This document shows, piece by piece, positions 1,874-17,470 of a DNA stretch of 64,000 nucleotides. Location: the NCBI RefSeq assembly GCF_000527135.1, contig NZ_AZUP01000001.1, positions 1,426,001 to 1,490,000 on the forward strand, read 5' to 3'. Position 1 is the stretch's first letter, and each line of letters opens with the position of its first letter. The position numbers and the translations under genes are program-made. The notes below the pieces were generated by a model. It was given only the letters and a program-made list of their open reading frames with translations. It searched no databases and was not told the DNA's origin. Source of the stretch: Methyloversatilis discipulorum. Lineage in GTDB: Bacteria > Pseudomonadota > Gammaproteobacteria > Burkholderiales > Rhodocyclaceae.

Positions 1874-2740
1874 TCAGCCCTCCTTCTCGCCGGAGGCGAA
1901 GGATTTGCGCGCCTCTTCATGCACGACCGACGAGGTTTCCTCGAGCAGTTCGCGGAAACGCGGACTGGTGAGCACGCTGTAGTCGCGCGGATGCGGTATG
2001 TCGACCTCGAGCACTTTCTTCGGGCGACATGGCCGCGTCGTCATGATCACCAGCTTGTGGCCGAGGAAGATGGCCTCTTCCAGGTCGTGAGTGATGAAGA
2101 AGATGGTGACCTTGTTCTTGTAGTAGATCTCGAGCAGCGACTCGTGCATCACCGAACGGGTCAGCGAATCGAGAGCCCGGTAGGGCTCGTCGAACAGCAG
2201 CACCTTGGGGTCGTTCATCAGCGCGCGCACGATCTCGACCCGCCGCCGCAGCCCCGACGAAACCTCGCCCGGGTAGTTGTGCTCGGTGCCGCTGAGGCCG
2301 GCATCGGCCATCATGCTGCGCGCCTTCTCGATGATCTCCTTCTTGCTCATCTTGCCCTGCATCATCGGGCCGAAGGCGACGTTCTCGAGATTCGTCTTCC
2401 ACGGAAACAGGGCGCCGTTCTGGAACACCACGATGCGGTCGGCACCCGGGTCCGCCCTCGGCTTGCCAGGGCCGCAGAGCATCTCGCCATCCATGTAGAT
2501 GGCGCCCGACGTGATGTCGTGGAAGCCGGCAATCGCGTTAAGCAGCGACGTCTTCCCGCAGCCGGATGGTCCGACGATCATGCAGATCTCGCCCGCCTTG
2601 ATGTCCAGCGTGCAGTGATCGACCGCCATGACCGCGGCCCCCTCGGGGTCGTAGATCTTGACCACGTCGTCGATCCGGATCGCCCCGTAGCGCGCCTCGT
2701 TGCCCTGCGTACGTACCTTCTCAAGCACAGCACTCATCAC
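1874..2740 (-). CDS. ABC transporter ATP-binding protein (first ATPase), degenerate signature
   Basis: This 288-aa NrtC/TauB-type ATPase has Walker A (VGPSGCGKTS), Q-loop (VFQNGALFPW), Walker B (VLLFDEPYRALD) and a normal H-loop (FITHDLEEA). The signature reads VSSGLRRR instead of LSGGQxxR, so the second residue pair of the motif is altered. The start codon overlaps the stop of the fused permease by 4 bp (ATGA), which implies translational coupling. A second ATG directly follows the first. Together with the H-loop change in the other ATPase (144-1037), the two defects fall in the same composite nucleotide site if the two subunits pair. Confidence 0.9.
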   Translation of the reverse strand: MMSAVLEKVRTQGNEARYGAIRIDDVVKIYDPEGAAVMAVDHCTLDIKAGEICMIVGPSGCGKTSLLNAIAGFHDITSGAIYMDGEMLCGPGKPRADPGADRIVVFQNGALFPWKTNLENVAFGPMMQGKMSKKEIIEKARSMMADAGLSGTEHNYPGEVSSGLRRRVEIVRALMNDPKVLLFDEPYRALDSLTRSVMHESLLEIYYKNKVTIFFITHDLEEAIFLGHKLVIMTTRPCRPKKVLEVDIPHPRDYSVLTSPRFRELLEETSSVVHEEARKSFASGEKEG

Positions 2741-4089
2741 CGACCTCCCAGAGCCATTTCACGCAGACGCCACTGCATCATGTAGTTGCCGGCAACCCGG
2801 ACCATCGCACTCGTCGTGTAACCGACGATGCCGAGCGTCACCATGCCGATGATGATGGTGGGGTATCTGACCATCGTGTAGGACGTGTTGATCACGTAGC
2901 CCAGTCCGTACTGTCCGGACACCATCTCACCGGCCACCAGCGAGAACCACGCAACGCCGACCGAGATCTGCAGTCCGGTGAACACATAGGGCATGGACCC
3001 CGGCACGATCACTTCCTTGAACACCTGCCACCGATTCGCGCCGAGACAGGCTGCGGCGCGCGTGTAGGACTCGTCGATCGACTCCACCCCCAGCATCGTG
3101 TTGAGTGCGGTCGCAAAGAAGGACGCGAGGAAGGTGAGGAAGATGACTGGCGTCTCGCTTCCCGAGAACATGATGATTGCCAGCGGCACCCATGCCAGGA
3201 TGGGGATAGGGCGAAGCAGCTCGAACACCGGGAACACGTACTCGCGGAAGCTGCGCGACCAGCCCAGGAACAGACCCAGCGGCACGCCGAGCGCGGTCGC
3301 CAGCAGGAAGGCAATGGCGACGCGCCGTATGCTCACCCATATGTGCTGGTAGTACTCAGCGGTGTAGATGGACATGCCATAGACCGGATCCTCGGCGAAC
3401 CACTCCTTCACCACCGTAGTCAGGCCGGGCAGATCCTCGAAGCGCGGCAGCTTCAGCACTTCCACCGTCAGGTACCAGAAGCCCAGCATCAGCGCGAAAC
3501 CCACCATCATCAGGTAGGGATCGGGGCTCCTGAGCCACTCTCCGGCGCGGTACATGGTCAGCGTCCACGCCGAGGCCGTCTGCGGTTCCGCCTGATTCGA
3601 GGCGGGTGTGCGCGTATCCCCCACCTTGGACAACGTGGTGGGCACGCGCCCGGACACCGACGGCGGCAGGTAGTACTGCTGGCTGATGAGCTGAGAAAAG
3701 CTCTTCAGCGCCGCCTCGCCGAAATTGACGTCCTTGCGCAGAAGCTCCAGCAGGCGGGTGCCGTCGATCTTCAGGACTTCGGCCGCCTCGATGCAGGCGA
3801 CGTCGGCAAGCCGCACCTTCTCGCCCTCGAGTATCGCCGCCCAGCCGAAGACGTCCCCGACCTGCAGTTCCTTCTCATGCACACGCGCCTTGATTTCCGG
3901 ATCGATCCGGTGCGCTACCCGGCCAGAGACCAGTACATAGACCTCTTCAGCTGGCTGACCAGCCCCGTAGATGACCTCACCCGCCTTGAAGACCTCATGT
4001 CTCGAGATCTCGGCAATGCCGTCCAGCGTTTCCGGCGACACGACCTGGAAGGGCAAGGTCCGCTTAAGCAAGCGTTCGACTTGTTCCAT
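2737..4089 (-). CDS. ABC permease with N-terminal cyclic-nucleotide-binding-like domain
   Basis: This 450-aa fusion has two parts. Residues about 1-145 form a Crp/cNMP-binding-like beta-barrel domain, including VFGWAAI and a following IDGTRLLELL helix. Residues about 185-450 form a NrtB/TauC-type permease, with membrane segments beginning near LMMVGFALMLGFWYL and the coupling loop at YTRAAACLGANRWQVFKEV. The start MEQVERLL is preferred because GAGGG lies just upstream, although its spacing is short; an ATG 12 bp earlier has no ribosome-binding site. Binding proteins, permeases and ATPases of this family normally lack such a domain. The classic phosphate-binding FGE is FGW here, so cAMP binding is doubtful. 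Two related domains occur at 5408-6133 and 17012-17470. I infer ligand-gated transport. Confidence 0.88.
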   Translation of the reverse strand: MEQVERLLKRTLPFQVVSPETLDGIAEISRHEVFKAGEVIYGAGQPAEEVYVLVSGRVAHRIDPEIKARVHEKELQVGDVFGWAAILEGEKVRLADVACIEAAEVLKIDGTRLLELLRKDVNFGEAALKSFSQLISQQYYLPPSVSGRVPTTLSKVGDTRTPASNQAEPQTASAWTLTMYRAGEWLRSPDPYLMMVGFALMLGFWYLTVEVLKLPRFEDLPGLTTVVKEWFAEDPVYGMSIYTAEYYQHIWVSIRRVAIAFLLATALGVPLGLFLGWSRSFREYVFPVFELLRPIPILAWVPLAIIMFSGSETPVIFLTFLASFFATALNTMLGVESIDESYTRAAACLGANRWQVFKEVIVPGSMPYVFTGLQISVGVAWFSLVAGEMVSGQYGLGYVINTSYTMVRYPTIIIGMVTLGIVGYTTSAMVRVAGNYMMQWRLREMALGGR

Positions 4090-4111
4090 GTTCCCTCGCA
4101 TTCAACGTGTG

Positions 4112-4136
4112 ACGCGTCCGCCCCGTGCGGACGCGT
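4112..4136 (-). other. Intercistronic hairpin after the binding-protein gene region
   Basis: A 9-bp perfect stem (ACGCGTCCG with CGGACGCGT, 7-nt loop) lies in the 55-bp gap between the binding-protein stop and the fused-permease start. Hairpins here often protect the abundant binding-protein mRNA and lower expression of the downstream membrane genes. There is no T-tract. Confidence 0.5.
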
Positions 4137-4144
4137 TCCTCAGC

Positions 4145-5284
4145 TCAGTTACCCTTGTAAGCGGATTCCGGCAGCGCCTTGACCGCACCGATCGGTGAGG
4201 TCAGTCCGCGCTCCTTGAGGACAGCCTGGGTGAATTCGGGCATCACGGCTTCCGGGCGAAGCTTGTCGACGTTGATGCTCTTGATGGCGAACAGGAAGGC
4301 GGTGGCATCGGTGATGAGTGCCTGCACTTCAGGCGTGATCGTGAAGGGAAGCAGCAGGCGCTGATCGACGCCGCCGGCGCTGTCCGGATAGCGCAGGAAC
4401 ATCGACGACCAGAGCGCCCGCTCGGTGAAGCCGGTGGTCTGTTCCATCGCCATGCGGGCGATTTCCTGCGCATTGGCGGGGTCCGCAAGGAAGAGCTGGG
4501 CGTCGAGTTCCGCGTTCAGCCAGGCCTTCACGACATCGGGACGGGTGCGAATCAGATCCTCACGCATGGTGAGAAAGCCGCCGTCACTCTCGTCCACTGT
4601 CGTTCCCGACGCGACGCGCTTTGCCAGGCCTTCCTGCACCAGGCGCGACGCGGTCGGTTCCCAGACCACCGCAGCATCCAGCTTGCCGGCACGGAAGCCG
4701 CTGGTGATGACTTCGATGTTCTGGTTCAGATAGGCACCCGGAGTGATGCTCTCCTTCTTGAAGGTCTCCTGGGCGAAACGGTCGGTGCAACTGCCTTTGG
4801 GCACCGCTACGTTCTTGCCGTTGAGCCACTTCAGCGCTTCCTTGGAGGATGCGAAGTTCGGTGCGTCCTTGCGTGCGAGGAAGATGTTGCACTGGTCCTT
4901 GCCGAGCCCGAGCGCCGCGACGATGCGGATGTCGGCGACCTGCTGCTTGGTCGTCGACACGATGCCCGGCATGTCGCCGACGTAGCCGATGTGCTGCTTG
5001 CCTGCGAGCATCGCATTGACGACCACCGCGCCCTGCAGGCCCACCGCGAAGTCGACCTTCGAGCCCTTGGGCAGGTATTTCTCGTAGAACTTCTTGCCGC
5101 GCATGACGACGCCCGACCACGACTCCGTGTAGTAAGGCTGGTAGCCCACCACCAGCTTCACCGGTTCGCCGACCTTGCCGAAGTTGATGTCGCCAGCCTG
5201 CGCGACGCCACCTGTCAGCGTGCACGCCGCCGCTGCGAGCAGCGTCGACACCATCCTGCATACCCGATTCCTGAGATTACCCAT
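4145..5284 (-). CDS. Periplasmic substrate-binding protein, NrtA/SsuA/TauA-like
   Basis: This 379-aa protein is the solute-binding component of the importer. It starts at MGNLRNRV, 10 nt after AGGAGG, and has a typical Sec signal peptide: basic N-terminus, hydrophobic stretch, and cleavage probably after AQA. The core matches the SsuA/NrtA/ThiY type: VVGYQPYYTES near the N-terminus, GYVGDMPG, VAVPKGSCTDRFAQ, and LDAAVVWEP. It is encoded between the oxygenase genes and the permease genes on one strand, so substrate uptake and oxygenation are probably co-regulated. Sulfonate as ligand is inferred from the sulfite-oxidising genes nearby; nitrate-type or other anions cannot be excluded from sequence alone. 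Confidence 0.88.
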   Translation of the reverse strand: MGNLRNRVCRMVSTLLAAAACTLTGGVAQAGDINFGKVGEPVKLVVGYQPYYTESWSGVVMRGKKFYEKYLPKGSKVDFAVGLQGAVVVNAMLAGKQHIGYVGDMPGIVSTTKQQVADIRIVAALGLGKDQCNIFLARKDAPNFASSKEALKWLNGKNVAVPKGSCTDRFAQETFKKESITPGAYLNQNIEVITSGFRAGKLDAAVVWEPTASRLVQEGLAKRVASGTTVDESDGGFLTMREDLIRTRPDVVKAWLNAELDAQLFLADPANAQEIARMAMEQTTGFTERALWSSMFLRYPDSAGGVDQRLLLPFTITPEVQALITDATAFLFAIKSINVDKLRPEAVMPEFTQAVLKERGLTSPIGAVKALPESAYKGN

Positions 5285-5407: not shown

Positions 5408-6133
5408 CTAACTGTTCTGAGGTCCTGTCGTGTGGCGCGCGACCAGCGTCGCCAGCCGTCGCATCACCATCAGCCCCGAGATCGGATCGGCCTCCAGCGC
5501 ATCGAGCATGGCCTCGCCGTTCAGCCGCAACAGCACCGAGTCCTCGTGGCAGACCGCGCGGGCGATGCGGCGGGGATGCTGTTCGAGCAGAGCCGCCCAG
5601 CCGAACACCTCACCCTTGCGCAACATGAAGCCCGCGAGCCGCGTGCGGTCGTCGCGCCCTATCGTGAATTCCACGCGCCCTGACTCGAGCACGTAGAGGT
5701 CATCAGCCGGGTCATCGACCTCGTAGATCACCGTGCCCGCGGAGAGCTGCTCGCGTCGGGCCAGCGCTTCGAGGCGCTCGAGCGACGCAGCGGAGACGTC
5801 CTTCAACATGTCCACCGCCTTGAGCGCACTCGATTGCAGTACGAAGATCTCGCCCTCGCTGACCTCCACCTCGTACTTTTCGAGCGGCGCCTCCGCCAGG
5901 CCGACGGCTTCGCCGGTCCGGATGTCCCACTGCCACAAATGCTGGTGACAGGTGAGCAACTGGCCGTCGAAGTAACCTTCGTCGAGGCACACATCCTGGT
6001 GCGGACACAGCCCCTGATATGCATGGAAGCACTCGCCGGCATTCACCACGAGGATCTTCATGCCCTCGATGTCGTAGCTCTTCATCCCGTTGTCCGGGAC
6101 GTCAGACGCGCTGCAGATTCGCTGTTTTTGCAT
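5408..6133 (-). CDS. Rieske [2Fe-2S] ferredoxin fused to a cNMP-binding-like domain
   Basis: This 241-aa fusion starts at MQKQRICSAS, 10 bp after the reductase stop. Residues 1-105 are a small Rieske ferredoxin of the T4MoC/oxygenase-ferredoxin type; the ligands are C43-x-H45 and C62-x2-H65, separated by 16 residues. Residues about 115-235 form a cNMP-like domain with GEVFGWAALL and RIARAV, clearly related to the domain in the permease at 2737-4089 and to the protein at 17012-17470. The ferredoxin should pass electrons from the reductase to the oxygenase. A sensory domain on an oxygenase ferredoxin is unusual and suggests allosteric control of electron flow. The domain calls are strong; the regulatory role is inference. 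Confidence 0.87.
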   Translation of the reverse strand: MQKQRICSASDVPDNGMKSYDIEGMKILVVNAGECFHAYQGLCPHQDVCLDEGYFDGQLLTCHQHLWQWDIRTGEAVGLAEAPLEKYEVEVSEGEIFVLQSSALKAVDMLKDVSAASLERLEALARREQLSAGTVIYEVDDPADDLYVLESGRVEFTIGRDDRTRLAGFMLRKGEVFGWAALLEQHPRRIARAVCHEDSVLLRLNGEAMLDALEADPISGLMVMRRLATLVARHTTGPQNS

Positions 6134-6143: not shown

Positions 6144-7184
6144 CTAGCTGAATTTGTCGTACCGGATGTTGTCCGCGGTGACGCGCGACAGCAGCAGCAT
6201 CCGGATCGAGGCATCGACCGCCGGAGGCGGCCCTGCGAGATAGGCAATGACATTGCCCAGACGGCCCACCATGTGCCGCTTCGCCACCTCGTGCACGAAG
6301 CCGCGATCGAAGCGGATCAGCGGGTAGTCACTGACCAGGGAGGACGGTGGGTCCTCGTCGCTCAGCGCGACGGTGACCGCAAGCCCCTCGCCACAGACAC
6401 GACGCAGGCGCGTGAACTCGTCGAGAAAGTACACATCGCGCGACGTACGGATGCCGAAGAACACATCGCCCGAGTGGCGGCTGAAGTACTCGTCCTGTTC
6501 GGCGCGGGAGAGGATGGACATGACGCCGGCGATACCGCTGCCGCCCGCGATGCACAGCAGGTCGCGTCCGAGGCTGGGGTAGAAGGTTGCGTGCCCCAGC
6601 GGCCCGAACAGCGAAACGCGTGTGCCGGCGCGTGACGCACCGCCGAACAGCCAGTCGGAGAGCACGCCGTCCGGCTTGCGCCGGACGACGAAGCGCAAGG
6701 TGCGCGCATGGCGATCAAAATTGACCATCGACCACCCGCGCATGCCTTCGACATCGTCGACACCGAGCAGCACGAACTGGCCGGCGTCGAATTCCACCGG
6801 TGCGTCCGTTTCGACATCGATCAGCATCACGTCGTGCGTGAGCATCTCGGTCGAGGCGATGCGCCCGGTACCTGCGCAGGGCACGCAGGAGCCGGTATCC
6901 ATCATCTGTACGAAGGCGGGTACCTCGGCCACGACATCGGTCCGGGCCACGCACTGACACATCAGGAACTCGTCCGCCGACTTCAGGCTCTTGCGTCCGG
7001 GCGCGTCAGGCCAGGCGTCATCGATGTCGCCGGACACCCGCTTCGCCTTGCAGGTCCCACAGGTTCCACTGGCACATTCGTAGGGAAGTGCGATGCCCCG
7101 CGCCAGACCGCCGTGCAGGATCTTCTCGCCCGGTGAAGCTTCGAACAGATGCGTCCGGTTTCGTGCGTTGACCTGGATTTTCAT
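6144..7184 (-). CDS. Oxygenase electron-transfer reductase (2Fe-2S ferredoxin/FAD/NAD)
   Basis: This 346-aa reductase starts at MKIQVNARNR with GGGGA upstream. Residues about 1-90 are a plant-type [2Fe-2S] ferredoxin with cysteines in ECASGTCGTC and LMCQC. The rest is an FNR-like FAD and NAD(P)H module, with the flavin motif MRGWSMVNF (RxxS type) and the nucleotide-binding CIAGGSGIAG. It matches the class of benzoate/toluene/methanesulfonate oxygenase reductases. It starts 19 bp after the beta-subunit gene, and the Rieske ferredoxin follows. It should transfer electrons from NAD(P)H to the Rieske ferredoxin or directly to the oxygenase. Confidence 0.9.
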   Translation of the reverse strand: MKIQVNARNRTHLFEASPGEKILHGGLARGIALPYECASGTCGTCKAKRVSGDIDDAWPDAPGRKSLKSADEFLMCQCVARTDVVAEVPAFVQMMDTGSCVPCAGTGRIASTEMLTHDVMLIDVETDAPVEFDAGQFVLLGVDDVEGMRGWSMVNFDRHARTLRFVVRRKPDGVLSDWLFGGASRAGTRVSLFGPLGHATFYPSLGRDLLCIAGGSGIAGVMSILSRAEQDEYFSRHSGDVFFGIRTSRDVYFLDEFTRLRRVCGEGLAVTVALSDEDPPSSLVSDYPLIRFDRGFVHEVAKRHMVGRLGNVIAYLAGPPPAVDASIRMLLLSRVTADNIRYDKFS

Positions 7185-7203: not shown

Positions 7204-7665
7204 TCAGAACGGAATGTGATAGCCGTAGCCGAGCAGCCGCGTATCGAGGCGCACGTTCCGACTGCGCAGCGCCGGGCCGTCATGGCCCAGCGTCACCGTG
7301 TCGTACAGCTTGCCCACCGCGAACAGTTCGGTCTCGCCACCATCGAGCGTGGTGCGGAACACCTCGATCGTGCTGGTGACGCTGGCCTCTTCGGCCGCTT
7401 CATCGATGTCGACCAGGCAGACATTGATGTGACGGCTGATCGGCGACTTGTCGCTGTTGTGCCGATGCAGGTTCTCGAACAGCGACTTCATGCCGGCCTT
7501 GTCATGCTCCAGCCACGTCATGTCCTTGCGGATCTCGGGGCTGTATGCGGTGATCCGGTACTGGTAATCCGGCGCACACAGGTCGAGATAGCCCTTGAAA
7601 TCCCGCTCGTCCATGATCAGACCGGATCTGTGGATGAGTTCGGTAATGGCGGTTCTGGTATCCAC
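7204..7665 (-). CDS. Ring-hydroxylating-type oxygenase beta subunit
   Basis: This 153-aa NTF2-fold beta subunit belongs to a two-component Rieske non-heme-iron oxygenase. The best start is GTG at 7665 (reading VDTRTAITELIHRSG), with GAGGG 6 nt upstream; longer readings run into the alpha-subunit gene. Family features are LIMDERDFKGYLDLCAPDYQYRI near the N-terminus and a C-terminal beta-sheet region (IEVFRTTLDGGETELFAVGK, then RNVRLDTRLL). It lies 35 bp after the alpha subunit. The partner alpha subunit sets substrate specificity. MsmB-like or aromatic-dioxygenase beta subunits are both possible. Confidence 0.85.
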   Translation of the reverse strand: MDTRTAITELIHRSGLIMDERDFKGYLDLCAPDYQYRITAYSPEIRKDMTWLEHDKAGMKSLFENLHRHNSDKSPISRHINVCLVDIDEAAEEASVTSTIEVFRTTLDGGETELFAVGKLYDTVTLGHDGPALRSRNVRLDTRLLGYGYHIPF

Positions 7666-7700: not shown

Positions 7701-8906
7701 TCACTTCGCCGCAACGGCCTGTTCGCCGTACGGGTCGTAGGCCTTGCGTCCCATGCGGCGGCTCCACTCGGCATAGAAGTGACGCATCCCGCCTTCATCG
7801 TGGATGGTCATGTTCTCCTCGCGCCCATGGATCACCCACCGGCTGTCCGTGCGCTCGCGCATCGCGAGCCCCTGGCCATGCACGCCGAGCAGGTCTTCGT
7901 GCAGGTTGCGGCCGAACGGCCCCCAGATCATGTTGTGGTCACGGATGCGCTCGGCGCGTTGCTCGGGCGTATCGCTCTTGAGTCCGAGCCCGCGGAACTC
8001 GATCAGCAGCTTGTTCGGGCCGAGCGGGATGGCGGTGTCCATGCGCAGCACCGAGGTGCGCAGGTTGTAGGTCATGCCGGGGAAGATATCGATGAGCACC
8101 CAGCCGCCCGGCGCCAGACCAGGCCAGCCCACGCCGCGCGCCTTGCTGCCCTCGTAGGCGTCGTACTTGATCGCCATCGAACCCACCGACGCGTGTCCGT
8201 TCGGATAGCCGGTGTACTTCCGGTCGAAGTAGCCCGGCTGGATCATGCCGGTGATGCGATTGAAGTAATGCATGTAGTCGTGATAGAACTCGCTGTTCGT
8301 GTCGTGCCACAGCTTGTAGTTCGTATTCACGATCGCCTTGTGGTAGTGGAACACCTCGAGCGGCTGGTCCAGATGCTCGTCGAGCATGCCCATCGCCTCG
8401 CCGATGTATTCCTTCAGGGTGCAGCTCTCGTCATCGACGTTCACCCACACGAAGCCGCCGAAGCCCAGTTCGGTCTTCACCTCGCGCAGCCCTGCATCCT
8501 TGCAGCCAAAGCGGTCCTGATAGCCCTCCTTGCCGCGGGAGATGTCGATGCAGTCGCCTGTCGCGTTGAACGACCACGCGTGGAAGATGCAGGTAATGCG
8601 CTTGGCGTTTCCGACCGGCTCGTAAAGCAGCGTGTTGCCGCGATGCGGACAGATGTTGTAGAAGGTCCGCACCTTCATGTCCTCACCGCGAATCACGATG
8701 AGCGGCGGCCCGCCGGGATGGCTGAACGTGCGGTAGTCGTAGGCGTTCGGAATCTCCGACTCGTGGCAGGCAATGATCCAGCACTTGTTGAAGATCTTGC
8801 GCTGCTCGTCGAGAAAGATGTCTTCCTCGGTATAGATGCGCGTATCGACATAGTGAGATTCAGGGAAGCTCGGCGTCTGCTTCCACTCCACTGCGTTGCG
8901 AGACAT
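7701..8906 (-). CDS. Rieske non-heme-iron oxygenase alpha subunit, candidate sulfonate oxygenase
   Basis: This 401-aa catalytic subunit starts at MSRNAVEWKQ, 7 nt after AAAGGAC. The Rieske ligands are C86-P-H88 and C106-I-F-H109, separated by 17 residues. The mononuclear iron site reads EFYHDYMH, giving H209 and H213 with E206 where most family members have the bridging aspartate; the two histidines are closer (HxxxH) than in the naphthalene-dioxygenase pattern (HxxxxH). It is the first gene of the operon and lies behind a sigma-54 promoter. Its neighbours are an anion-type ABC importer and sulfite oxidation genes, and no ring-cleavage genes are present. Release of sulfite from a small or aromatic sulfonate is therefore inferred. 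Methanesulfonate monooxygenase is one candidate, but from memory MsmA has a longer Rieske spacing. Confidence 0.85.
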   Translation of the reverse strand: MSRNAVEWKQTPSFPESHYVDTRIYTEEDIFLDEQRKIFNKCWIIACHESEIPNAYDYRTFSHPGGPPLIVIRGEDMKVRTFYNICPHRGNTLLYEPVGNAKRITCIFHAWSFNATGDCIDISRGKEGYQDRFGCKDAGLREVKTELGFGGFVWVNVDDESCTLKEYIGEAMGMLDEHLDQPLEVFHYHKAIVNTNYKLWHDTNSEFYHDYMHYFNRITGMIQPGYFDRKYTGYPNGHASVGSMAIKYDAYEGSKARGVGWPGLAPGGWVLIDIFPGMTYNLRTSVLRMDTAIPLGPNKLLIEFRGLGLKSDTPEQRAERIRDHNMIWGPFGRNLHEDLLGVHGQGLAMRERTDSRWVIHGREENMTIHDEGGMRHFYAEWSRRMGRKAYDPYGEQAVAAK

Positions 8907-8984: not shown

Positions 8985-9002
8985 TAGCAGAAGGCGTGCC
9001 CG
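8985..9002 (-). promoter_or_regulatory. Sigma-54 promoter of the oxygenase/transport operon
   Basis: The minus strand reads CGGGCACGCCTTCTGCT, which gives GG-N10-GC with a good -24 box (GGCACG). It lies about 80 bp before the oxygenase start and about 125 bp from the nearest dyad at 9125, a normal distance for an NtrC-type activator. Confidence 0.75.
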
Positions 9003-9402: not shown

Positions 9403-11187
9403 TTGAATCCACTGTCCAATCGCGTGTATAGAACCGGTCTGTCATTGCTGCCGATGCGGCGCTGGTGGCCGATGGTCAACCGGGCATCGCTGCGCAGCGA
9501 TGCCATGGCAGGCCTGAGCGGAACCATCATCCTGCTGCCACAGGCGGTGGCCTATGCCCACATCGCCGGAATGCCACCCGAGTACGGTCTCTACGCCGCA
9601 ATCATTCCGGTCATCTTTGCGGCACTGTTCGGCTCGTCCAGGCATCTGGTATCCGGTCCGACCGCGGCACTTTCCATCGTGGTGTTCTCGACCATCAGCC
9701 CGCTGGCCGAGCCGGGCAGCGCGACCTATATCGCCTACGTCCTGACGCTCACTTTCATGGTCGGCCTGATGCAGCTCGCGCTCGCCTTCGCGCGCATGGG
9801 CATGCTGGTCAACTTCATCTCGCACAGCGTGGTCATCGGCTTCACGGCAGGCGCGGCCATGCTGATCGCGGTGAGCCAGCTGAAGAACTTCTTCGGTCTG
9901 CACTACGGCTCAGGCGGGGAGTTCTTCGGCACGCTGTCCCGCTTTGCGGCAGCAGCAGGTGACATCAACTGGCAGGTGGCGGGCGTGGGCGCGATGACGC
10001 TCGCAGCCGGGATACTCACCAAGCGTCACTTGCCCCGCGTGCCCTACATGATCGTGGCCATGGTCGTCGGCAGCGTTTACGCGCTCGCCGTGAAAGCGGT
10101 GCTCGGCCACGATGCAGGCATCGAGACGGTGTCGGAGATTCCACGCAGCCTGCCGCCGCTCTCCGCGCCAATGCTGTCCATGGAGGTGCTCCACCAGCTC
10201 GGCGCGATAGCGCTCGCCGTCACCCTGCTGTCGCTGACCGAGGCGCTGTCGATCGCGCGCGCCGTGGGCGCCAAGTCGGGCCAGCACATTGATGGCAATC
10301 AGGAGTTCTTCGGCCAGGGGCTGGCCAATCTGGCCGGAAGTTTCTTCTCGGGTTACGTGTCGAGCGGCTCGTTCACACGCAGCGGCATCAACTACGAGGC
10401 CGGCGCGGTCACGCCGCTGTCGTCGGTGTTCTCGGCCTGCTTCCTTGTTCTGACCTTGCTGTTCTTCGTGCCTTTGGCGCGTTACCTGCCGATCGCGTCG
10501 ATGGCGGCCATCCTGTTCATGGTCGCCTACGCGCTGATCGACGTGAAGCACATCCGGGCCGTCATGCGCACCAGCCGGCGCGAGTCTGCAGTGCTGTTCG
10601 CAACGCTGGCCTCCACGCTCGTGTTCCAGCTCGAGTTCGCAATCTACGCCGGCGTCATTCTCTCTCTGGTGCTTTACCTGGAGCGCACCGCACGACCCGG
10701 CATACGCGCCGCCGTACCGGCGCCCGGCGAGGGTCAGTACCACTTCGTTCCGCAGCGCGACGAGCCGGATTGTCCGCAGCTGAAGATGGAGTTCATCGAC
10801 GGCGAACTGTATTTCGGTGCCATCGATCACGTGAAGCGCCATCTCCATCAGCTGGAGGAAGTCCATCCGGAACAGCGCCATCTACTTGTGCTGGCACCCG
10901 GTATCAACTTCATCGACGCATCCGGTGCGGACCTGCTCGCCGAGGAGGCACGCCGGCGGCGCGCGCGCGGAGGCGGACTCTACTTCCATCGGCTGAACGA
11001 GCAGGCGCGCAGCACGCTCGAGCGCGGCGGCCAGCTCGACGACATCGGACGGGACAGGCTCTTCGCGATCGGCGACGACGTGATCGGCACGCTCTATCCG
11101 CACTTCGATCCGCAGGTCTGCGCGAACTGCCGGAACCGCATCTTCAGGCAATGCAAGGAATGGCTACCCGATGGCAGCCCCCGCTGA
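9403..11187 (+). CDS. SulP-family sulfate transporter with STAS domain
   Basis: This 594-aa SLC26/SulP anion transporter is read from a TTG at 9403 with GGAAG 8 nt upstream; an ATG at 9454 is an alternative. The SulP signature is seen in GLSGTIILLPQAVAYAHIAG and PPEYGLYAAIIPVI, and about a dozen hydrophobic segments run to about residue 425. A STAS domain follows (about 450-560), with the typical loop around INFIDASGADLL. After it there is a cysteine cluster, CANCRNRIFRQC, which could bind metal. It leads the operon that continues with the sulfite-dehydrogenase-like genes. Removal of the sulfate formed is a plausible job, though family members usually import. Confidence 0.88.
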   Translation: MNPLSNRVYRTGLSLLPMRRWWPMVNRASLRSDAMAGLSGTIILLPQAVAYAHIAGMPPEYGLYAAIIPVIFAALFGSSRHLVSGPTAALSIVVFSTISPLAEPGSATYIAYVLTLTFMVGLMQLALAFARMGMLVNFISHSVVIGFTAGAAMLIAVSQLKNFFGLHYGSGGEFFGTLSRFAAAAGDINWQVAGVGAMTLAAGILTKRHLPRVPYMIVAMVVGSVYALAVKAVLGHDAGIETVSEIPRSLPPLSAPMLSMEVLHQLGAIALAVTLLSLTEALSIARAVGAKSGQHIDGNQEFFGQGLANLAGSFFSGYVSSGSFTRSGINYEAGAVTPLSSVFSACFLVLTLLFFVPLARYLPIASMAAILFMVAYALIDVKHIRAVMRTSRRESAVLFATLASTLVFQLEFAIYAGVILSLVLYLERTARPGIRAAVPAPGEGQYHFVPQRDEPDCPQLKMEFIDGELYFGAIDHVKRHLHQLEEVHPEQRHLLVLAPGINFIDASGADLLAEEARRRRARGGGLYFHRLNEQARSTLERGGQLDDIGRDRLFAIGDDVIGTLYPHFDPQVCANCRNRIFRQCKEWLPDGSPR

Positions 11188-11233: not shown

Positions 11234-14140
11234 ATGAGCACAGTCCGTCTGTCGAACCCGCATGCCGAGCCGGTGGAGGAACTGGATGTCAAGAAGACCA
11301 CCTGTTACATGTGCGCCTGTCGTTGCGGCATCCGCGTACATCTGCGTAACGGCGAGGTCCGCTACATCGACGGTAATCCGGACCATCCGCTGAACCAGGG
11401 TGTCATCTGCGCCAAGGGCGCGTCCGGCATCATGAAGCAGCAGTCGCCGGCGCGACTGACCCAGCCCCTTATCCGCAGGCCCGGTACCGAGCGCGGCGCT
11501 GGCGAGTTCGACGAGATCAGCTGGGAAGAGGTCTTCACGCTGCTCGCCGAGCGCCTGAAGAAGCTGCGCGAAACCGACCCGAAAAAATTCGCGCTGTTTA
11601 CCGGCCGCGACCAGATGCAGGCGCTCACCGGCATGTTCGCCAAGCAGTTCGGTACACCGAACTACGCAGCGCACGGCGGCTTCTGCTCGGTCAACATGGC
11701 GGCCGGCATGATCTACACGATAGGCGGTTCCTTCTGGGAGTTCGGCGGCCCCGACCTCGAACGCTCGAAGCTGTTCATCATGATCGGCACGGCGGAGGAC
11801 CACCACTCCAATCCGATGAAGGTGGCGCTGTCGAAATTCAAGCGCAACGGCGGCCGCTTCGTGTCCATCAATCCGGTGCGTACCGGCTATTCGGCGATCG
11901 CCGACGAATGGGTGCCGATCAAGCCCGGCACCGACGGCGCCCTGCTGCTGGCGCTGTGTCACGAAATCATCGCCAAGGGGCTGTACGACCGGGAGTTCCT
12001 GGCGCGTTACACCAACGCCGGCCAGCTGGTGATGCAGAACCCCGACGCCGACGATTTCGGGCTGTTCGCGATGGACCCCGAGGGCGATCCGGTGAACCCG
12101 GACTACCCGCACAACAAGTACTGGTGGGATCGCCTGACCGACAAGCTGGTACCGACCCACACGCCGGGCGCCGATCCGCGCCTGCGCGGCTGCTATGCGC
12201 TGCCGGACGGCACACCGGTGAAACCGGCGTTCCAGCTGCTGCTCGATCGCCTCAAGAGCTACACGCCGGAATGGGCGGAGGGCATCTGCGGCGTTCCGGC
12301 GGACACCATCCGCCGGCTGGCGCACGAAATGGGCGTGACGGCCCGTGACCAGAAGATCCACCTGCCGATCTCGTGGACCGACTCGTGGGGCGTCGAACAC
12401 GACCACGTCACCGGCAATCCGGTGTCCTTCCACGCGATGCGCGGACTGGCCGCTCACTCGAACGGCTTCCACACGATACGTGCGCTGGCCATCCTGATGT
12501 CGCTGCTGGGGACCATCGATCGCCCCGGTGGCTTCCGCCACAAGGCGCCCTTCCCGCGCGCTATTCCGCCGATCGCCAAGCCGCCGCGCGGCCCGCATGC
12601 GGTCAAGCCCAACAGTCCGCTGGACGGCATGCCGCTGGGCTTCCCGGCGGACCCGGCCGATCTGTGCGTCGATGACGACGGGCGGCCGGTGCGCATCGAC
12701 AAGGGCTTCTCGTGGGAGTACCCGCTGTCGGCGCACGGCCTGATGCACAACGTGATCACCAACGCATGGCGCGGTGACCCGTATCCGATCGACACCCTGC
12801 TCATCTTCATGGCGAACATGGCGTGGAACTCGACCATGAACACCAGCGAAGTGCGCCAGATGCTGAACGACAAGGGTGAGGACGGCGAGTACCGCATTCC
12901 CTTCATCGTGGTCTGCGACGCCTTCCAGTCGGAAATGACGGGATTCGCCGACCTCATCCTGCCCGACACCACCTATCTGGAACGGCACGACGTGATGTCG
13001 ATACTCGACCGGCCGATCTCCGAGTTCGACGGTCCGGTCGACTCGGTGCGCATTCCGGTGGTGGAGCCCAAGGGGCAGTGCAAGCCCTTCCAGGAAGTGC
13101 TGATCGAACTGGGCAGCCGGCTCGGTCTGCCGGCCTTCGTGCGGCCGGATGGCTCGCGCAAGTTCCGCGACTACCCCGACTTCATCGTGAACTACGAAAC
13201 CGAGCCGGGATCGGGCATCGGCTTCCTTGCCGGCTGGCGCGGCGTTGACGGCCAGAAGGCCATACGCGGCGAGCCGAACCCGAAGCAGTGGGAAATGTAT
13301 GCGAAGAACAACTGCGTCTTCCATTACGTTCTGCCCGCGTCCTATCAGTACATGCGCAACTGGAACAAGGGCTATATGGAGTGGGCGCAGCGGGTGCGCA
13401 TGCGGCGTGACGCGGACCCGATCCTGATCCACCTGTACTCCGACGTGATGCAGCGCTTCCGGCTGGCCGCGCAAGGGCGACGGCCGGGTCGCCGGCCGCC
13501 GCCGGAACTGCGCGAGCGCGTCGAGAAGTACTTCGACCCGCTGCCCTTCTACTACCCGCCGCTGGAATCGCAGAGCACCGACACCACGCGCTACCCGCTG
13601 AACGCGGTGACGCAGCGGCCGATGGCGATGTACCACTCGTGGGATTCGCAGAACGCCTGGCTGCGGCAGATACACGCGCACAACTACCTGCACGTGAATC
13701 CAGCCACCGCACGCGCCGCCGGCATCGGCGACGGCGACTGGATGTGGGCGGAATCGCCCTGGGGCAAGGTGCGCTGCATGTGCCGCTACAGCGAGGCGGT
13801 CGAGGCCGGAACCGTATGGACCTGGAACGCGATCGGCAAGGCGAGCAACGCGTGGAACCTCGGCCCGATGGCCAACGAGGCGCGCAAGGGCTTCCTGCTG
13901 AACCACCTGATCTCCGAAGAACTGCCGATGCAGGGCAGTTCGCGGCGCATGTCGAATTCCGATCCGGTGACCGGACAGGCGGCCTGGTACGACGTGCGCG
14001 TGCGCATCTATCGCGCCGGCGACGACGAGCCCAAGGAGAGCTGGCCGCAGTTCGAGCCGATGAAAACCTTGCCGGGCGTGACGAAGAAGCGCCCCGGCGT
14101 CCTGACCTACTTCGTCGGCAACTGGAAGAAGCGCTCGTGA
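11234..14140 (+). CDS. soeA: Molybdopterin oxidoreductase, SoeA-like sulfite dehydrogenase catalytic subunit
   Basis: This 968-aa member of the DMSO-reductase superfamily starts at MSTVRLSNP, 6 nt after GGAG; an ATG 12 bp earlier lacks a site. The N-terminal [4Fe-4S] ligands are in TCYMCACRCG and VICAKG. The probable molybdenum ligand is the cysteine in HGGFCSVNMAAG. No twin-arginine signal is present, so it is cytoplasmic, as known for SoeA of Allochromatium. The following genes encode the four-cluster FeS subunit and DmsC-type anchor expected for SoeBC. The reaction would be sulfite plus water to sulfate, with electrons to quinone. Related enzymes (polysulfide or thiosulfate reductases) are usually exported, so SoeA is the best reading. 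Confidence 0.8.
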   Translation: MSTVRLSNPHAEPVEELDVKKTTCYMCACRCGIRVHLRNGEVRYIDGNPDHPLNQGVICAKGASGIMKQQSPARLTQPLIRRPGTERGAGEFDEISWEEVFTLLAERLKKLRETDPKKFALFTGRDQMQALTGMFAKQFGTPNYAAHGGFCSVNMAAGMIYTIGGSFWEFGGPDLERSKLFIMIGTAEDHHSNPMKVALSKFKRNGGRFVSINPVRTGYSAIADEWVPIKPGTDGALLLALCHEIIAKGLYDREFLARYTNAGQLVMQNPDADDFGLFAMDPEGDPVNPDYPHNKYWWDRLTDKLVPTHTPGADPRLRGCYALPDGTPVKPAFQLLLDRLKSYTPEWAEGICGVPADTIRRLAHEMGVTARDQKIHLPISWTDSWGVEHDHVTGNPVSFHAMRGLAAHSNGFHTIRALAILMSLLGTIDRPGGFRHKAPFPRAIPPIAKPPRGPHAVKPNSPLDGMPLGFPADPADLCVDDDGRPVRIDKGFSWEYPLSAHGLMHNVITNAWRGDPYPIDTLLIFMANMAWNSTMNTSEVRQMLNDKGEDGEYRIPFIVVCDAFQSEMTGFADLILPDTTYLERHDVMSILDRPISEFDGPVDSVRIPVVEPKGQCKPFQEVLIELGSRLGLPAFVRPDGSRKFRDYPDFIVNYETEPGSGIGFLAGWRGVDGQKAIRGEPNPKQWEMYAKNNCVFHYVLPASYQYMRNWNKGYMEWAQRVRMRRDADPILIHLYSDVMQRFRLAAQGRRPGRRPPPELRERVEKYFDPLPFYYPPLESQSTDTTRYPLNAVTQRPMAMYHSWDSQNAWLRQIHAHNYLHVNPATARAAGIGDGDWMWAESPWGKVRCMCRYSEAVEAGTVWTWNAIGKASNAWNLGPMANEARKGFLLNHLISEELPMQGSSRRMSNSDPVTGQAAWYDVRVRIYRAGDDEPKESWPQFEPMKTLPGVTKKRPGVLTYFVGNWKKRS

Positions 14141-14198: not shown

Positions 14199-14930
14199 AT
14201 GACCCAGCTGGCACTCGTGATCGATCTCAACGTCTGCGTGGGCTGCCAGGCCTGCGTGACGAGCTGCAAGTCGTGGAACACATCGGGCACGGCCGGTTCG
14301 CTGGCCGACCTCAACCCCTACGACGAGGACCCGACCGGCACCTTTTTCAACCGGGTTCAGACCTTCGAGGTCGGCAGCTACCCGAATACCGAAACGGTGC
14401 ATTTCCCGAAATCGTGTCTGCACTGCGAAGACCCGCCCTGCGTTCCGGTCTGCCCGACCGGCGCCAGCTACAAGCGGGCCGAGGACGGCATCGTGCTGGT
14501 CGACTACGACAAGTGCATCGGCTGCAAGTACTGTTCATGGGCCTGTCCTTACGGCGTCCGCGAGCTTGATCCGGAGCGCAAGGAGATGACCAAGTGCACG
14601 CTGTGCGTGGACCGCATCTACAACGAGGCGCTGCCCGAGCGCGATCGCAAACCGGCCTGCGTGCTGGCGTGCCCGACCAGCGCACGCATCTTCGGCGACG
14701 TGCACGACCCGGACTCTTCGGCCTCGAAGGCGATACGCGAGCGCGGCGGTTACCAGCTGATGCCGGAATGGGGCACCGAGCCGTCCAACCACTACCTGCC
14801 GCGGCGGAAAACCGAAATGACGATACGGCCAGACGAGATCGTACGTACCGACAATCCGCTGAAAGTGGATGGCCTGAAGCCGATGCCGGACGCCAGCACA
14901 CCGGCGCTGGACGACGCCGCAAGCTGGTAA
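14199..14930 (+). CDS. soeB: 4Fe-4S ferredoxin subunit, SoeB-like
   Basis: This 243-aa electron-transfer subunit starts at MTQLALVIDL, 8 nt after AGGAG. It has four cysteine groups for four [4Fe-4S] clusters: CVGCQACVTSC, CLHCEDPPCVPVCP, CIGCKYCSWACP, and CTLC with CVLACP. This is the NrfC/PsrB/DmsB pattern. It sits 58 bp after the catalytic subunit and 33 bp before the membrane anchor. It should carry electrons from the molybdenum subunit to the quinone site of SoeC on the cytoplasmic face. Confidence 0.85.
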   Translation: MTQLALVIDLNVCVGCQACVTSCKSWNTSGTAGSLADLNPYDEDPTGTFFNRVQTFEVGSYPNTETVHFPKSCLHCEDPPCVPVCPTGASYKRAEDGIVLVDYDKCIGCKYCSWACPYGVRELDPERKEMTKCTLCVDRIYNEALPERDRKPACVLACPTSARIFGDVHDPDSSASKAIRERGGYQLMPEWGTEPSNHYLPRRKTEMTIRPDEIVRTDNPLKVDGLKPMPDASTPALDDAASW

Positions 14931-14963: not shown

Positions 14964-15905
14964 ATGAATCCCGCCTTCTCCGTCATTCTGCTCACGACGC
15001 TCACCGGCGCCGCTCAGGGCCTCTTCCTTGCACTTTTCGGGTGTGAGCTCGCGCATGCGCTGAACCTGTCCGCGCCGACGCCGGGGCACGACTTCTACGT
15101 CGTTGGCGCACTGATCAGTCTTGCGTTGTCGGGCGCCGGGTTGATCGCATCGTTCTTCCATCTGGGTCGGCCCGAACGGGCCTGGCGCAGTGCGGCGATG
15201 TGGCGTACCTCCTGGCTGTCCCGCGAAGTCATCGTGCTGCCGGCCTTCATGGCCACGACTGCACTGTACGGGCTCAGCCATGCCATGGACTGGCCCCTGA
15301 CCCTGGCGACAGGCGCGATCGGTGCAGTGCTTGCGCTGGCGCTCTTCGTCTGCACCGGCATGATCTACGCATGCCTGAAGTTCCTGCAGGAATGGGCCAG
15401 CCCGCTCACCGTGGTCAACTATCTGGTACTGGGCTGCGCCTCCGGCCTGACACTGGCCAGCGCCTACGCCGCACTCAGCGCCGCGGAACTGATGACGATG
15501 ATGACGTCGCTGGCCATCGCCCTGACGCTGCTCGGTCTGGTCACACGCAGCGCGTCACTGCTGCGCAATGCACGACTGCGGCCTCGCTCGTCGCTGCAGA
15601 CCGCAATCGGCATCCACCACCCGCGCATCGCGCAACGCTCTCAGGGCCTGATGGGCGGCTCCTTCAACACCCGCGAGTTCTTCCACCACCGTACGCTGCA
15701 GTTCCTGCGTTCGGTGAAATGGACCTTCCTGCTGCTTGCCTTCGTGCTGCCGGTGCTGCTGCTCGCTGCGGGCGCTGCGACCACGTCCTCGCCCCTGCTG
15801 TGGCTGGCCTTCGCAGTCCAGTACACCGGTCTGCTGGCCGAGCGCTGGTACTTCTTCGCACAGGCCAACCACCCGCAGAATCTTTACTACCAGACCATCT
15901 CCTGA
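14964..15905 (+). CDS. soeC: DmsC-type membrane anchor, SoeC-like
   Basis: This 313-aa integral membrane protein has about eight hydrophobic helices, starting FSVILLTTLTGAAQGLFLALF. Conserved DmsC features include SFFHLGRPERAWRS after the second helix and WLSREVI. It is the last gene of the plus-strand operon and ends before two hairpins. It should anchor SoeAB to the inner membrane and pass electrons to quinone. Members of this family usually have 270-330 aa, so the length fits. Confidence 0.85.
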   Translation: MNPAFSVILLTTLTGAAQGLFLALFGCELAHALNLSAPTPGHDFYVVGALISLALSGAGLIASFFHLGRPERAWRSAAMWRTSWLSREVIVLPAFMATTALYGLSHAMDWPLTLATGAIGAVLALALFVCTGMIYACLKFLQEWASPLTVVNYLVLGCASGLTLASAYAALSAAELMTMMTSLAIALTLLGLVTRSASLLRNARLRPRSSLQTAIGIHHPRIAQRSQGLMGGSFNTREFFHHRTLQFLRSVKWTFLLLAFVLPVLLLAAGAATTSSPLLWLAFAVQYTGLLAERWYFFAQANHPQNLYYQTIS

Positions 15906-15913
15906 GAGCGATT

Positions 15914-16223: not shown

Positions 16224-16973
16224 CTAGTAGCCGCCGACCGCTTTGACCAGCAGCCCGCCACCAACCGCCAGGCAAAGGACACCGACCCAGAAGCGCAGAC
16301 GCTGCGCGTTGATGGCATGGACGATGCGCGCGCCGATCATGACACCCGCCAGTTCGAACAGCACCAGCGCGCCGGCGAGGCCGAAATCGATGACGCCGAA
16401 GCGCAGATTGCCGAGCGTGCCCGACGCGCCGGCCAGTATCTGTATCACCTGGCTGGTTCCTATCGTGGTCAGGGGTGCGAAGCCTGCGAGCACCATCATC
16501 GGTACCGACAGCGCCGGCCCACCGACACCGGTCAGCCCCGAGCCGAATCCGGCCACACCACCGAGACCGAAGAGCATGGCGCGCTGCAGGCCGGGGTGAC
16601 CGTGCAGCGCAGGGCGCCGTGGCCGGCCGCGCGTCGCCAGCGTGTAGACGCCGGCCAGACAGACCACCAGCGCGAGCAGCAGCATCAACAACGATGCATT
16701 GAGCAGCGCATTCACCCAGGCTCCCGCGAAGCCGCTGATCAGTGCGCCCGCGCATACCGGCACCGTGATGCGCAGGTCGATGCTGCCATGGCGCATGAAG
16801 GCGATGGTGCCGACGATGCCGGTGAATACGAAGGTGAACAGCGCGGTGGCCATCGCCGACTGTATGCTCAGGCCGCCGATCAGGTTGAGCGCCGGAATGA
16901 GCAGGATGCCGCCCACGCCCACCGCGCCGATCAAGGTGCCGACCACGAGTGCGATCAGCATCAACAACACCAT
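16224..16973 (-). CDS. TauE/SafE-family membrane protein, candidate sulfite/sulfonate exporter
   Basis: This 249-aa inner-membrane protein has two homologous hydrophobic halves: LIGAVGVGGILLIPAL in the first and FGSGLTGVGGPALSVPMMV in the second. That is the TauE/SafE (DUF81) pattern. GGGAG lies 6 nt before its start. It follows the cNMP-like gene by 38 bp, and both probably share the sigma-54 promoter at 17505-17521. TauE family members are linked to export of sulfite or sulfoacetate in sulfonate degraders, which fits this locus. Export of excess sulfite is the likely role, but the ion is not provable here. Confidence 0.83.
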   Translation of the reverse strand: MVLLMLIALVVGTLIGAVGVGGILLIPALNLIGGLSIQSAMATALFTFVFTGIVGTIAFMRHGSIDLRITVPVCAGALISGFAGAWVNALLNASLLMLLLALVVCLAGVYTLATRGRPRRPALHGHPGLQRAMLFGLGGVAGFGSGLTGVGGPALSVPMMVLAGFAPLTTIGTSQVIQILAGASGTLGNLRFGVIDFGLAGALVLFELAGVMIGARIVHAINAQRLRFWVGVLCLAVGGGLLVKAVGGY

Positions 16974-17011
16974 GATGCTCTCCCGATGCGAGCCTTGCGC
17001 CGCTTGGGCGT

Positions 17012-17470
17012 TCAGCCCGCGGCGAACGAAGTGAAAGTGCCCGTGATCAGGAGATTGAGTTGTTTCATGATGCGGTAGCCCATCGTGTGGTCCGCATCCA
17101 TCAGCATCAGAAGGCGCGTGCCGTCTATCGCCAGCACGCGACAGTCGGTCACGCAGGAAGCGGTGGCGATGCGCCCCTGCGCCTCCGGTACCAGCGCGGC
17201 CCAGCCGAACACCTGTCCGCGCTCGAGCACATCGCCCGCCGAGGTATTCCTGCCGCCTACGCCAATGGCGAACCTGACCTTGCCATCGAGCAGCACGTAG
17301 AGCGACTTCACCGGATCGCCGATGTTGTAGATCCGGCTGTGCTGCGCCCAGTCCTCGGGGCGCGCGATGAGCGTGATGGCGTGCAACTGCGCATCACTCA
17401 GCCCGGTAAAGAACGGCGCCTGCCTGAGAACACTGAAAGGCGTGTGCAGCGGACTCGAAACCCCGGTCAT
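17012..17470 (-). CDS. Stand-alone cNMP-binding-like protein without DNA-binding domain
   Basis: This 152-aa protein is almost entirely one Crp-type effector-binding domain. It contains LYVLLDGKVRFAIG, then LERGQVFGWAALVPEAQGRIATA and LAIDGTRLLMLMD. The helix-turn-helix of Crp/Fnr proteins is missing. It closely resembles the domains fused to the permease (2737-4089) and to the Rieske ferredoxin (5408-6133); all three share VFGWAA where canonical domains have FGE. It is the first gene of a short operon with the TauE-like exporter and sits behind a sigma-54 promoter and activator dyad. It might sense the same ligand as the fused domains, or associate with the exporter. Confidence 0.83.
   Translation of the reverse strand: MTGVSSPLHTPFSVLRQAPFFTGLSDAQLHAITLIARPEDWAQHSRIYNIGDPVKSLYVLLDGKVRFAIGVGGRNTSAGDVLERGQVFGWAALVPEAQGRIATASCVTDCRVLAIDGTRLLMLMDADHTMGYRIMKQLNLLITGTFTSFAAG

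Follow-up and report, generated by a model that had tools for sequence, protein, structure and literature searches.

FGW-motif domains of the cyclic-nucleotide-binding fold on a permease, a Rieske ferredoxin and a free protein of a Methyloversatilis discipulorum oxygenase cluster

The window, the whole stretch of 64,000 nucleotides analysed here (Methyloversatilis discipulorum contig NZ_AZUP01000001.1, positions 1,426,001 to 1,490,000), encodes a Rieske oxygenase and an ABC transport system (Table 1). Three of its minus-strand genes, for an SsuC/TauC-like ABC permease, a Rieske ferredoxin and a free protein, each encode a related domain of the cyclic-nucleotide-binding fold (CNBD; PF00027) with a common VFGWAA motif, called the FGW domain below. 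PF00027 scored above cut-off in each. It covers residues 33-120 of the permease (53.6 bits), followed by BPD_transp_1 at 268-424; residues 128-215 of the ferredoxin (61.1 bits), preceded by the Rieske domain at 3-80; and residues 41-126 of the free protein (50.2 bits). No NCBIfam cut-off was reached by the top matches of this permease, the models SaoP, TauC and NtrB, and none of the best 25 NCBIfam models passed cut-off for the molybdopterin oxidoreductase. A search of the three FGW proteins at an E-value of 0.01 gave no Pfam match for a helix-turn-helix or an HK97-fold shell domain. By sequence, the top solved match to the Rieske half of the ferredoxin was the toluene-4-monooxygenase ferredoxin T4moC (1vm9; E-value 3.7e-18), from which the second domain is absent.

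Table 1. Genes, domains and candidate promoter elements of the cluster, in window coordinates
Feature	Position	Strand	Basis
ABC ATPase 1	144..1037	-	PF00005
ABC permease 1, without FGW domain	1052..1864	-	PF00528
ABC ATPase 2	1874..2737	-	PF00005
ABC permease, NitT/TauT/Ssu type, 450 aa, N-terminal FGW CNBD-like domain	2737..4089	-	Pfam PF00027 + PF00528
FGW domain, permease copy, residues 4-140	3670..4080	-	joint alignment of 365 copies
Substrate-binding protein, NMT1/SsuA-like	4145..5284	-	PF13379; TIGR01728 below cut-off
Rieske ferredoxin, 241 aa, C-terminal FGW CNBD-like domain	5408..6133	-	Pfam Rieske + PF00027
FGW domain, ferredoxin copy, residues 101-236	5426..5833	-	joint alignment of 365 copies; structure model
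Ferredoxin/FAD reductase	6144..7184	-	PF00111, PF00970, PF00175
Oxygenase beta subunit	7204..7665	-	PF00866
Rieske oxygenase alpha subunit, CXH-X17-CXXH	7701..8906	-	PF00355 + PF00848; spacer 17
Candidate sigma-54 -24/-12 promoter, alpha operon	8986..9001	-	2 mismatches; 8/11 consensus letters; comparably placed in related loci
Palindrome GTTTC-N5-GAAAC, site 1	9125..9139	.	pattern scan of window
Palindrome GTTTC-N5-GAAAC, site 2, begins 23 bp past site 1	9148..9162	.	pattern scan of window
Candidate sigma-54 -24/-12 promoter toward SulP	9297..9312	+	1 mismatch; pattern not above chance window-wide
SulP-family transporter with STAS domain	9403..11187	+	PF00916, PF01740
Molybdopterin oxidoreductase, probable sulfite-oxidising SoeA (from context)	11234..14140	+	PF00384, PF04879, PF01568
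4Fe-4S subunit, probable SoeB (from context)	14199..14930	+	PF13247
DmsC-like membrane subunit, probable SoeC (from context)	14964..15905	+	PF04976
TauE/SafE exporter, 38 nt downstream of free FGW gene	16224..16973	-	PF01925
Free FGW CNBD-like protein, 152 aa	17012..17470	-	PF00027 only
FGW domain, free copy, residues 11-146	17033..17440	-	joint alignment of 365 copies
Palindrome GTTTC-N5-GAAAC upstream of free FGW gene	17572..17586	.	pattern scan of window
NtrC-type sigma-54 response regulator	17625..19073	-	PF00158 + PF00072
Histidine kinase	19048..20121	-	PF00512 + PF02518

The three domains are homologous. Their pairwise identities are 40/104, 45/115 and 40/116 (34-39%), and their Smith-Waterman scores (185, 205 and 161) lie far above the maximum of 50 reached in 300 shuffles each. 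Elsewhere in the 4.3-Mb genome 10 further PF00027 domains were found; none of them has FGW, and the top score of the trio with any of them was 115. In a tree built from few columns and with long outgroup branches, on which the program issued a warning, the FGW domains form one clade apart from those ten with support of 99/98. Chance resemblance was ruled out by the shuffles and the tree. The ferredoxin copy, the one that was modelled, aligns to CNBD structures. The initial annotation had reported three related VFGWAA domains, at the coordinates confirmed here but without giving their strand, and had proposed to check them by alignment and to abandon the idea if phylogeny separated them; the Pfam matches, identities and shuffles confirmed the domains, and the tree kept them together.

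Its sequences mark the cluster as a relative of methanesulfonate (MSA) monooxygenase with a short spacer (CXH-X17-CXXH). The MSA monooxygenase system comprises MsmABCD and a transport operon MsmEFGH, with MsmC a 16-kDa ferredoxin (PMC4433239). The window likewise has alpha, beta, Rieske ferredoxin and reductase as neighbouring genes, with a substrate-binding protein, an ATPase, two permeases and TauE nearby, and its alpha subunit shares 60% identity with the X26-type alpha of Variovorax WS11 (L060). It differs in its alpha spacer (17 in place of the CXH-X26-CXXH of Msm), in a 241-residue ferredoxin that joins Rieske and PF00027 domains where Msm has a small single-domain one, in the extra FGW domain on the ferredoxin and one permease, and in a second ATPase. 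With its spacer of 17, the enzyme was rejected as a proven MSA monooxygenase. Henriques and De Marco mention 'MsmA' proteins with a short spacer in Methyloversatilis, Methylibium, Ralstonia and Thiobacillus and call MSA use by them unproven (PMC4433239); these come from the same genera and share the spacer of 17. The term 'cyclic nucleotide' does not occur in the text of that article, so that the extra domain is not discussed there under that name, and no paper on the FGW fusion architecture was found in the open-licence PMC literature, a scope outside which the founding Msm papers lie.

The distribution of the domain was examined in 399 genomes of the order, with at most 10 candidates per genome scored, an FGW-family call set at 150 bits or more and a close alpha subunit defined by an E-value below 1e-200. 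The genomes with domains of at least 150 bits were precisely those with such an alpha, 10 in number and from 7 families. The next FGW-domain matches scored 101 bits, in a genome (G374) whose alpha match spans 210 residues and contains an in-frame stop, and 82 bits. G107 and G659 have a distant alpha (43-45% identical), and neither had an FGW-domain match at an E-value of 1e-12 or below. On this scoring of at most 10 candidates per genome, the idea that the FGW domain serves these genomes as a general CNBD was rejected. If genomes were picked by alpha alone (E-value below 1e-200), both fusions were present in 15 of 15 (on another contig in G415), and the free copy was seen in 12. At all 18 loci with a free copy, its nearest recognised neighbour is TauE and/or an NtrC-type regulator. 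The search for the FGWAA fusion in other genomes that the initial annotation had suggested thus ties the family, in the genomes sampled, to one oxygenase/transport cluster. Among ten X26 clusters (L032, L037, L054, L060, L091, L092, L105, L113, L172 and L173) the domain was found in three, two of which (L032 and L037) are near relatives, and no FGW domain lies within 24 kb at L172 of Methylobacterium nodulans, L173 of Paraburkholderia graminis or a toluene-monooxygenase locus (L174). PLSDB plasmid records gave 93 matches, none of which covered 80% of the query, and so did not yield the fusion. Beyond the cluster, distant CNBDs (L154 and L155) likewise contain FGW.

The GTTTC-N5-GAAAC palindrome is found three times in the window (0.04 expected). 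Several related loci have the pair of sites 1 and 2 upstream of their alpha as well, and the palindrome is present in 38 of 59 alpha-upstream regions as well as upstream of the window's free copy; it is absent from the other 21, including the domain-bearing L017, L021 and L099. Sigma-54 consensus matches over the whole window (19) fell below the 33 expected by chance, and therefore only position upstream of alpha was used. There, 29 of the 59 regions score at least 9/11, the window's own region scoring 8, and the mean of 7.49 compares with at most 6.05 in 200 mononucleotide shuffles. Three loci with no FGW domain on the components seen (L056, L058 and L059) lack the palindrome upstream of alpha and also the sigma-54 site there; in L057 the palindrome is present and the domain is on neither component.

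In the structure of E. coli CRP, the Glu of the FGE motif touches the ribose 2'-OH and an Arg of the same cassette touches the phosphate. The Glu position is Trp in all three window domains, and what we take to be the phosphate-contacting Arg is present in each at the CRP spacing. The initial annotation was accordingly right that FGE has become FGW in all three, and wrong in calling FGE the phosphate-binding part. In the pocket Ile or Leu also replaces the neighbouring Ser, the residue after Arg is hydrophobic, and the FG turn and Arg are retained. Across 365 copies in three subfamilies, drawn from best-120 match lists and hence biased to close relatives, F-G-W is conserved at 99-100% and Arg at 97-100% in each subfamily. 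Of 16 columns more than 95% invariant, eight fall inside the 19-position cassette (hypergeometric p 2e-4, for a span picked after looking). Where a lineage has lost one copy, the remaining ones retain FGW; the permease copy of L053 has His for the cassette Arg. Ordinary cAMP binding is unlikely, because Trp replaces the Glu that holds the ribose, a reading of the sequence that favours the earlier suggestion of a ligand other than cAMP. Together with the replaced Ser and the preserved Arg and FG turn, this means that the pocket is probably not one for cyclic nucleotides.

The same domain on an uptake transporter and an electron carrier, and often also free, suggests control of the entire pathway by a single signal. 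We tentatively favour, at somewhat short of an even chance, a dedicated and probably non-cyclic-nucleotide sensor that would bind a ligand and gate uptake and electron supply, perhaps as a sulfite brake. All three copies would read one intracellular signal: the permease copy, placed by prediction on the cytoplasmic side before the first transmembrane segment, would gate uptake, the ferredoxin copy would gate the flow of electrons towards the oxygenase, and the free copy, made beside TauE and the NtrC regulator, may tune export or induction. As ligand we would bet on a small sulfur oxyanion. Sulfite, the toxic product of the pathway, is the likeliest and would put a feedback brake on it. In favour of this reading are the confinement of the domain to the cluster in the genomes sampled, the conserved cassette, the linkage of the free copy to TauE and/or the NtrC regulator, and the palindrome upstream of both alpha and the free copy. 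The domain-free loci, the alpha-upstream regions without a palindrome, the small share of X26 clusters with the domain and the FGW of distant CNBDs weigh against it. That a nucleotide-binding fold became a pathway-private sulfur-oxyanion sensor, with copies on transporter, electron carrier and a free partner, throttling uptake, catalysis and sulfite export of an organosulfonate pathway together post-translationally atop NtrC/sigma-54 induction, is possible but on the unlikely side. Two known groups frame the comparison. Window domains differ from CRP/FNR-type CNBDs (PF00027) in having FGW for FGE, no DNA-binding domain and a fusion to permease or ferredoxin. Family 2B encapsulins provide a precedent: they carry PF00027 domains (CBD) with a divergent site in a non-regulator protein, reported not to bind cyclic nucleotides (PMC12407261). 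The match of NF041163 to each of the three FGW proteins is weak and lies far under its cut-off; the window proteins differ in having no HK97 shell, another host protein and another pathway.

The main alternative, itself rather unlikely, is that FGW domains pair with one another, the free copy serving as an adaptor, so that permease, ferredoxin/oxygenase and TauE are held together and substrate and sulfite are channelled with no need of a small ligand. The domain's presence on two pathway components and an adaptor-like free protein, its exclusivity to the system in the genomes sampled and the tandem copies within one permease (L036/L098) would all fit such docking, but conservation centres on the ligand cassette, including Trp and Arg, and one fusion has been lost while the other stays in L053, L055 and L041. 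On the other hand, these residues could equally be conserved for docking, and ordinary CNBDs too have a well-conserved cassette. Domain losses among the 44 clusters in which alpha, ferredoxin and permease were assessable number three from both components, two from the ferredoxin only and one from the permease only. With three changes each and three independent pairs, too few for power (sign test, median p 0.5), these events are too few to show mutual dependence of the copies.

It is improbable that the domains still bind a cyclic nucleotide or another nucleotide second messenger with altered chemistry, such as a base- or ribose-modified ligand. The fold and the phosphate Arg are kept, and the genome also has CRP-like FGE proteins, so that the cell may contain a cyclic nucleotide. 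However, the near-invariant Trp at the ribose-Glu position and the hydrophobic residue after Arg argue against this, and confinement of family domains of at least 150 bits to cluster-bearing genomes of the order sample would be odd for a global messenger. Less probable still is a redox- or sulfite-reactive site made up of Trp and a Cys six residues after Arg, with a covalent or redox signal in place of a bound ligand. That Cys is conserved in 93% of permease, 99% of ferredoxin and 74% of free copies among the 365, and its position is Ala or Thr, read by eye, in this genome's five other domains that keep Arg (L001, L002, L004, L007 and L008); about a quarter of free copies do without it, and it is therefore not essential for them. 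A structural or relic domain with no regulatory role is the least credible reading: the domain is dispensable in some lineages, being absent from both components in the otherwise complete L057 and L059 and in L056, which is cut at a contig end, but its cassette is near-invariant in three subfamilies at only 34-39% identity between the window copies, and both fusions occur in every alpha-sampled genome.

If the domain senses a pathway metabolite, one sensor domain would be spread over the import, the electron transfer and perhaps the export of a catabolic pathway. Methanesulfonate is a main atmospheric product of dimethyl sulfide, and the host bacteria may turn it over. The FGWAA fusion together with the X17 spacer may serve as a sequence marker that helps to distinguish 'MsmA' annotations of unproven function from the proven X26 enzymes, and the FGW proteins would offer a defined set in which to seek a non-nucleotide ligand of the PF00027 fold.

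The three genes to which the initial annotation had assigned related cNMP-like domains were confirmed as real at their positions, and PF00027 was found in the products of all three, each over the cut-off set by Pfam. These domains, which carry FGW in place of FGE (FGW domains), share 34-39% pairwise identity and score 161-205 against one another (shuffle maximum 50), with a top score of 115 against the ten other PF00027 domains found in the genome. The proposed relatedness was checked by phylogeny and is borne out by both the mutual scores and a tree of 73 domains, in which FGW domains form a single clade against those ten (support 99/98). The tree is based on few columns, and its outgroup branches are long; in it, the ferredoxin copies form one clade (98/98) and the free copies another (97/97), and the permease copies are monophyletic only when two related free domains from other loci (L027 and L047) are included (100/100). 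A further FGW protein, in locus L152, resembles these two by eye. Two FGW domains in tandem were directly observed in the permease of L036/L098, and four proteins of 616-625 aa (P0128-P0131) match it in length.

Positions of features in the window or, where named, in related loci
Feature	Position	Strand	Remark
Permease with FGW domain	2737-4089	minus	
Rieske ferredoxin with FGW domain	5408-6133	minus	
Free FGW protein	17012-17470	minus	
Palindrome pair	9125-9162		between alpha and SulP, 23 bp apart
Palindrome, single	17572-17586		upstream of the free copy
Permease 1	1052-1864		glycine-rich stretch
Three flagellin-like genes	46304-50294		in a row
Additional FGW protein	L027:4332-4994		with permease copies in tree
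Additional FGW protein	L047:3913-4872		with permease copies in tree
Free FGW gene of X26 cluster	L091:6719-7150		adjoins reductase

An alignment of 365 copies (124 permease, 121 ferredoxin, and 120 free) was built from the 120 best matches of each search and is hence skewed to close relatives. F-G-W is conserved in 99-100% of these copies, and an Arg ten residues past the Trp in 97%, 99%, and 100% of the permease, ferredoxin, and free copies, respectively, followed by Leu/Met or Ile. A Cys six residues past the Arg is present in 93% of permease, 99% of ferredoxin, and 74% of free copies, and the 19-position cassette holds 8 of the 16 columns that are more than 95% invariant. Relative to the equivalent positions of CRP, Glu72 is replaced by Trp, Arg82 is retained, and Ser83 is replaced by Ile/Leu. 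Such a pattern would be expected of a site with new chemistry, and not of one that has simply decayed.

The oxygenase alpha subunit and the FGW domain were searched for independently. Genomes with alpha numbered 4 of 369 at class level, 13 of 399 at order level, and 6 of 399 and 3 of 4 in two families (overlapping samples; E cut-offs of 1e-80 or 1e-120). All 15 distinct genomes with alpha at E<1e-200 have the domain on both permease and ferredoxin, in one case (G415) on a different contig from alpha, and 12 have the free copy; of the other three, two (G447, G712) lack a further copy of at least 150 bits and G055 is seen only as far as a contig end. With at most 10 candidates scored per genome, and a draw apparently identical to that for alpha, judging by genome handles, matches of at least 150 bits among the 399 genomes of the order occurred in exactly the 10 with alpha at E<1e-200, eight of which have the free copy. 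The next-best match (101 bits) is in G374, whose alpha match spans 210 residues and contains an in-frame stop; matches below it score 82 bits or less, and the Trp position is mostly Glu at the loci inspected. In genomes G107 and G659, whose X17 alpha is distant (43-45% identical), no FGW-domain match was obtained at E<=1e-12. The association has a Fisher p of 4e-20 on the assumption, which does not hold, that genomes are independent. The ten genomes belong to 7 families. Among 398 genomes of the phylum, under the same candidate limit, only G000 and G629 reached 150 bits (next match 80). A few distant CNBDs also have the FGW motif itself (L154, L155).

Among 44 clusters with assessable alpha, ferredoxin, and permease, counted after removal of 8 duplicate records, both fusions are present in 38 and both absent from 3, while 2 have the permease fusion only and 1 the ferredoxin fusion only; since most were found via the fused ferredoxin, these proportions are skewed toward it. 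Parsimony requires three changes for each fusion. The module is accessory to catalysis, and either copy can be lost separately. The domain is not limited to the X17 enzyme, as two X26 clusters (L032 and L037) carry both fusions alongside a plain ferredoxin, and a third (L091) has a free FGW gene that is intermediate in the tree, with free copies on one side and ferredoxin and permease copies on the other; 7 of the 10 X26 clusters examined lack the domain.

In the genome collection, the cluster is best matched by that of a Methyloversatilis discipulorum MAG (94-99% identity across the 13 genes on its locus). The order alpha, beta, reductase, Rieske-FGW, SBP, permease-FGW, ATPase, permease, ATPase also recurs in Thiobacillus thioparus, Methylibium, Rubrivivax, Glaciimonas, Polaromonas, and Thioalkalivibrio records and in many MAGs. 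The ferredoxin matched 1187 database proteins, the best 120 of which all carry both domains, as do the best 120 of at least 3679 permease matches (7997 candidates scored, those sharing most words). The stretch AAEMISGGG...GGGLGFFIW of permease 1, variable in length, recurs in 47 of the 49 rows of related permeases when duplicates are counted. Farther along the window, the flagellin-like genes, recognised by eye, encode 298, 299, and 321 aa.

Among genes recognised by a window homologue, the one nearest to the free copy is TauE and/or NtrC at all 18 loci with such a copy (unrecognised genes may intervene); in 12 the copy shares the strand of TauE and lies upstream of it, and in 10 it lies downstream of NtrC. 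This count omits L061, where the domain alone was recognised, and the duplicates L109 and L110. The 64-kb window contains three copies of the palindrome GTTTC-N5-GAAAC (0.04 expected); related loci totalling 1.09 Mb contain 63, and 38 of 59 alpha-upstream regions of 320 bp contain at least one. Many of these regions have a sigma-54-type site between palindrome and alpha. The palindromes are probable NtrC-type enhancer sites, at which the neighbouring regulator would bind. Distant second alpha/beta pairs (alpha 55-65% identical) occur in the same genomes or loci (L034, L035, L044, L090, L103, L104, L106), and the palindrome also lies upstream of those in L044, L103, L104, and L106.

The window alpha has the motif CXH-X17-CXXH and yet shares 60% identity with an X26 alpha, that of Variovorax WS11 (L060). 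X26 is the spacer of methanesulfonate monooxygenases from strains with proven growth on MSA; Henriques and De Marco list short-spacer proteins from Methyloversatilis universalis FAM5, Methylibium, Ralstonia, and Thiobacillus, for which they are aware of no hard data on MSA oxidation (PMC4433239). WS11 showed no growth on MSA when tested in the study that describes its cluster (PMC7143210), and methanesulfonate-use genes were among the silent ones in FAM5 on methanol or methylamine (PMC5023235). The SsuA-like SBP, TauE, the SulP transporter, and the DmsABC-like molybdoenzyme, which is probably sulfite oxidising, make a sulfonate that frees sulfite the likely substrate class, with methanesulfonate as our best guess.

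A search of open-licence PMC returned no paper whose listing combines a CNBD with either a Rieske ferredoxin or a sulfonate permease. The component parts are known; their combination, and its restriction to a single pathway, seem to be undescribed in the searchable literature. A PF00027 domain that does not bind cyclic nucleotides has a reported precedent in Family 2B encapsulin (PMC12407261). The strongest rival to ligand sensing is that the domains dock with one another, which predicts pathway exclusivity just as a sensor does; conservation of the cassette tilts the balance from docking toward a ligand. We favour the FGW domain as a shared sensor of a small oxyanion, with sulfite the first choice. 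The free copy would act at TauE or at the regulator, and the ligand would put a brake on both uptake and electron flow.
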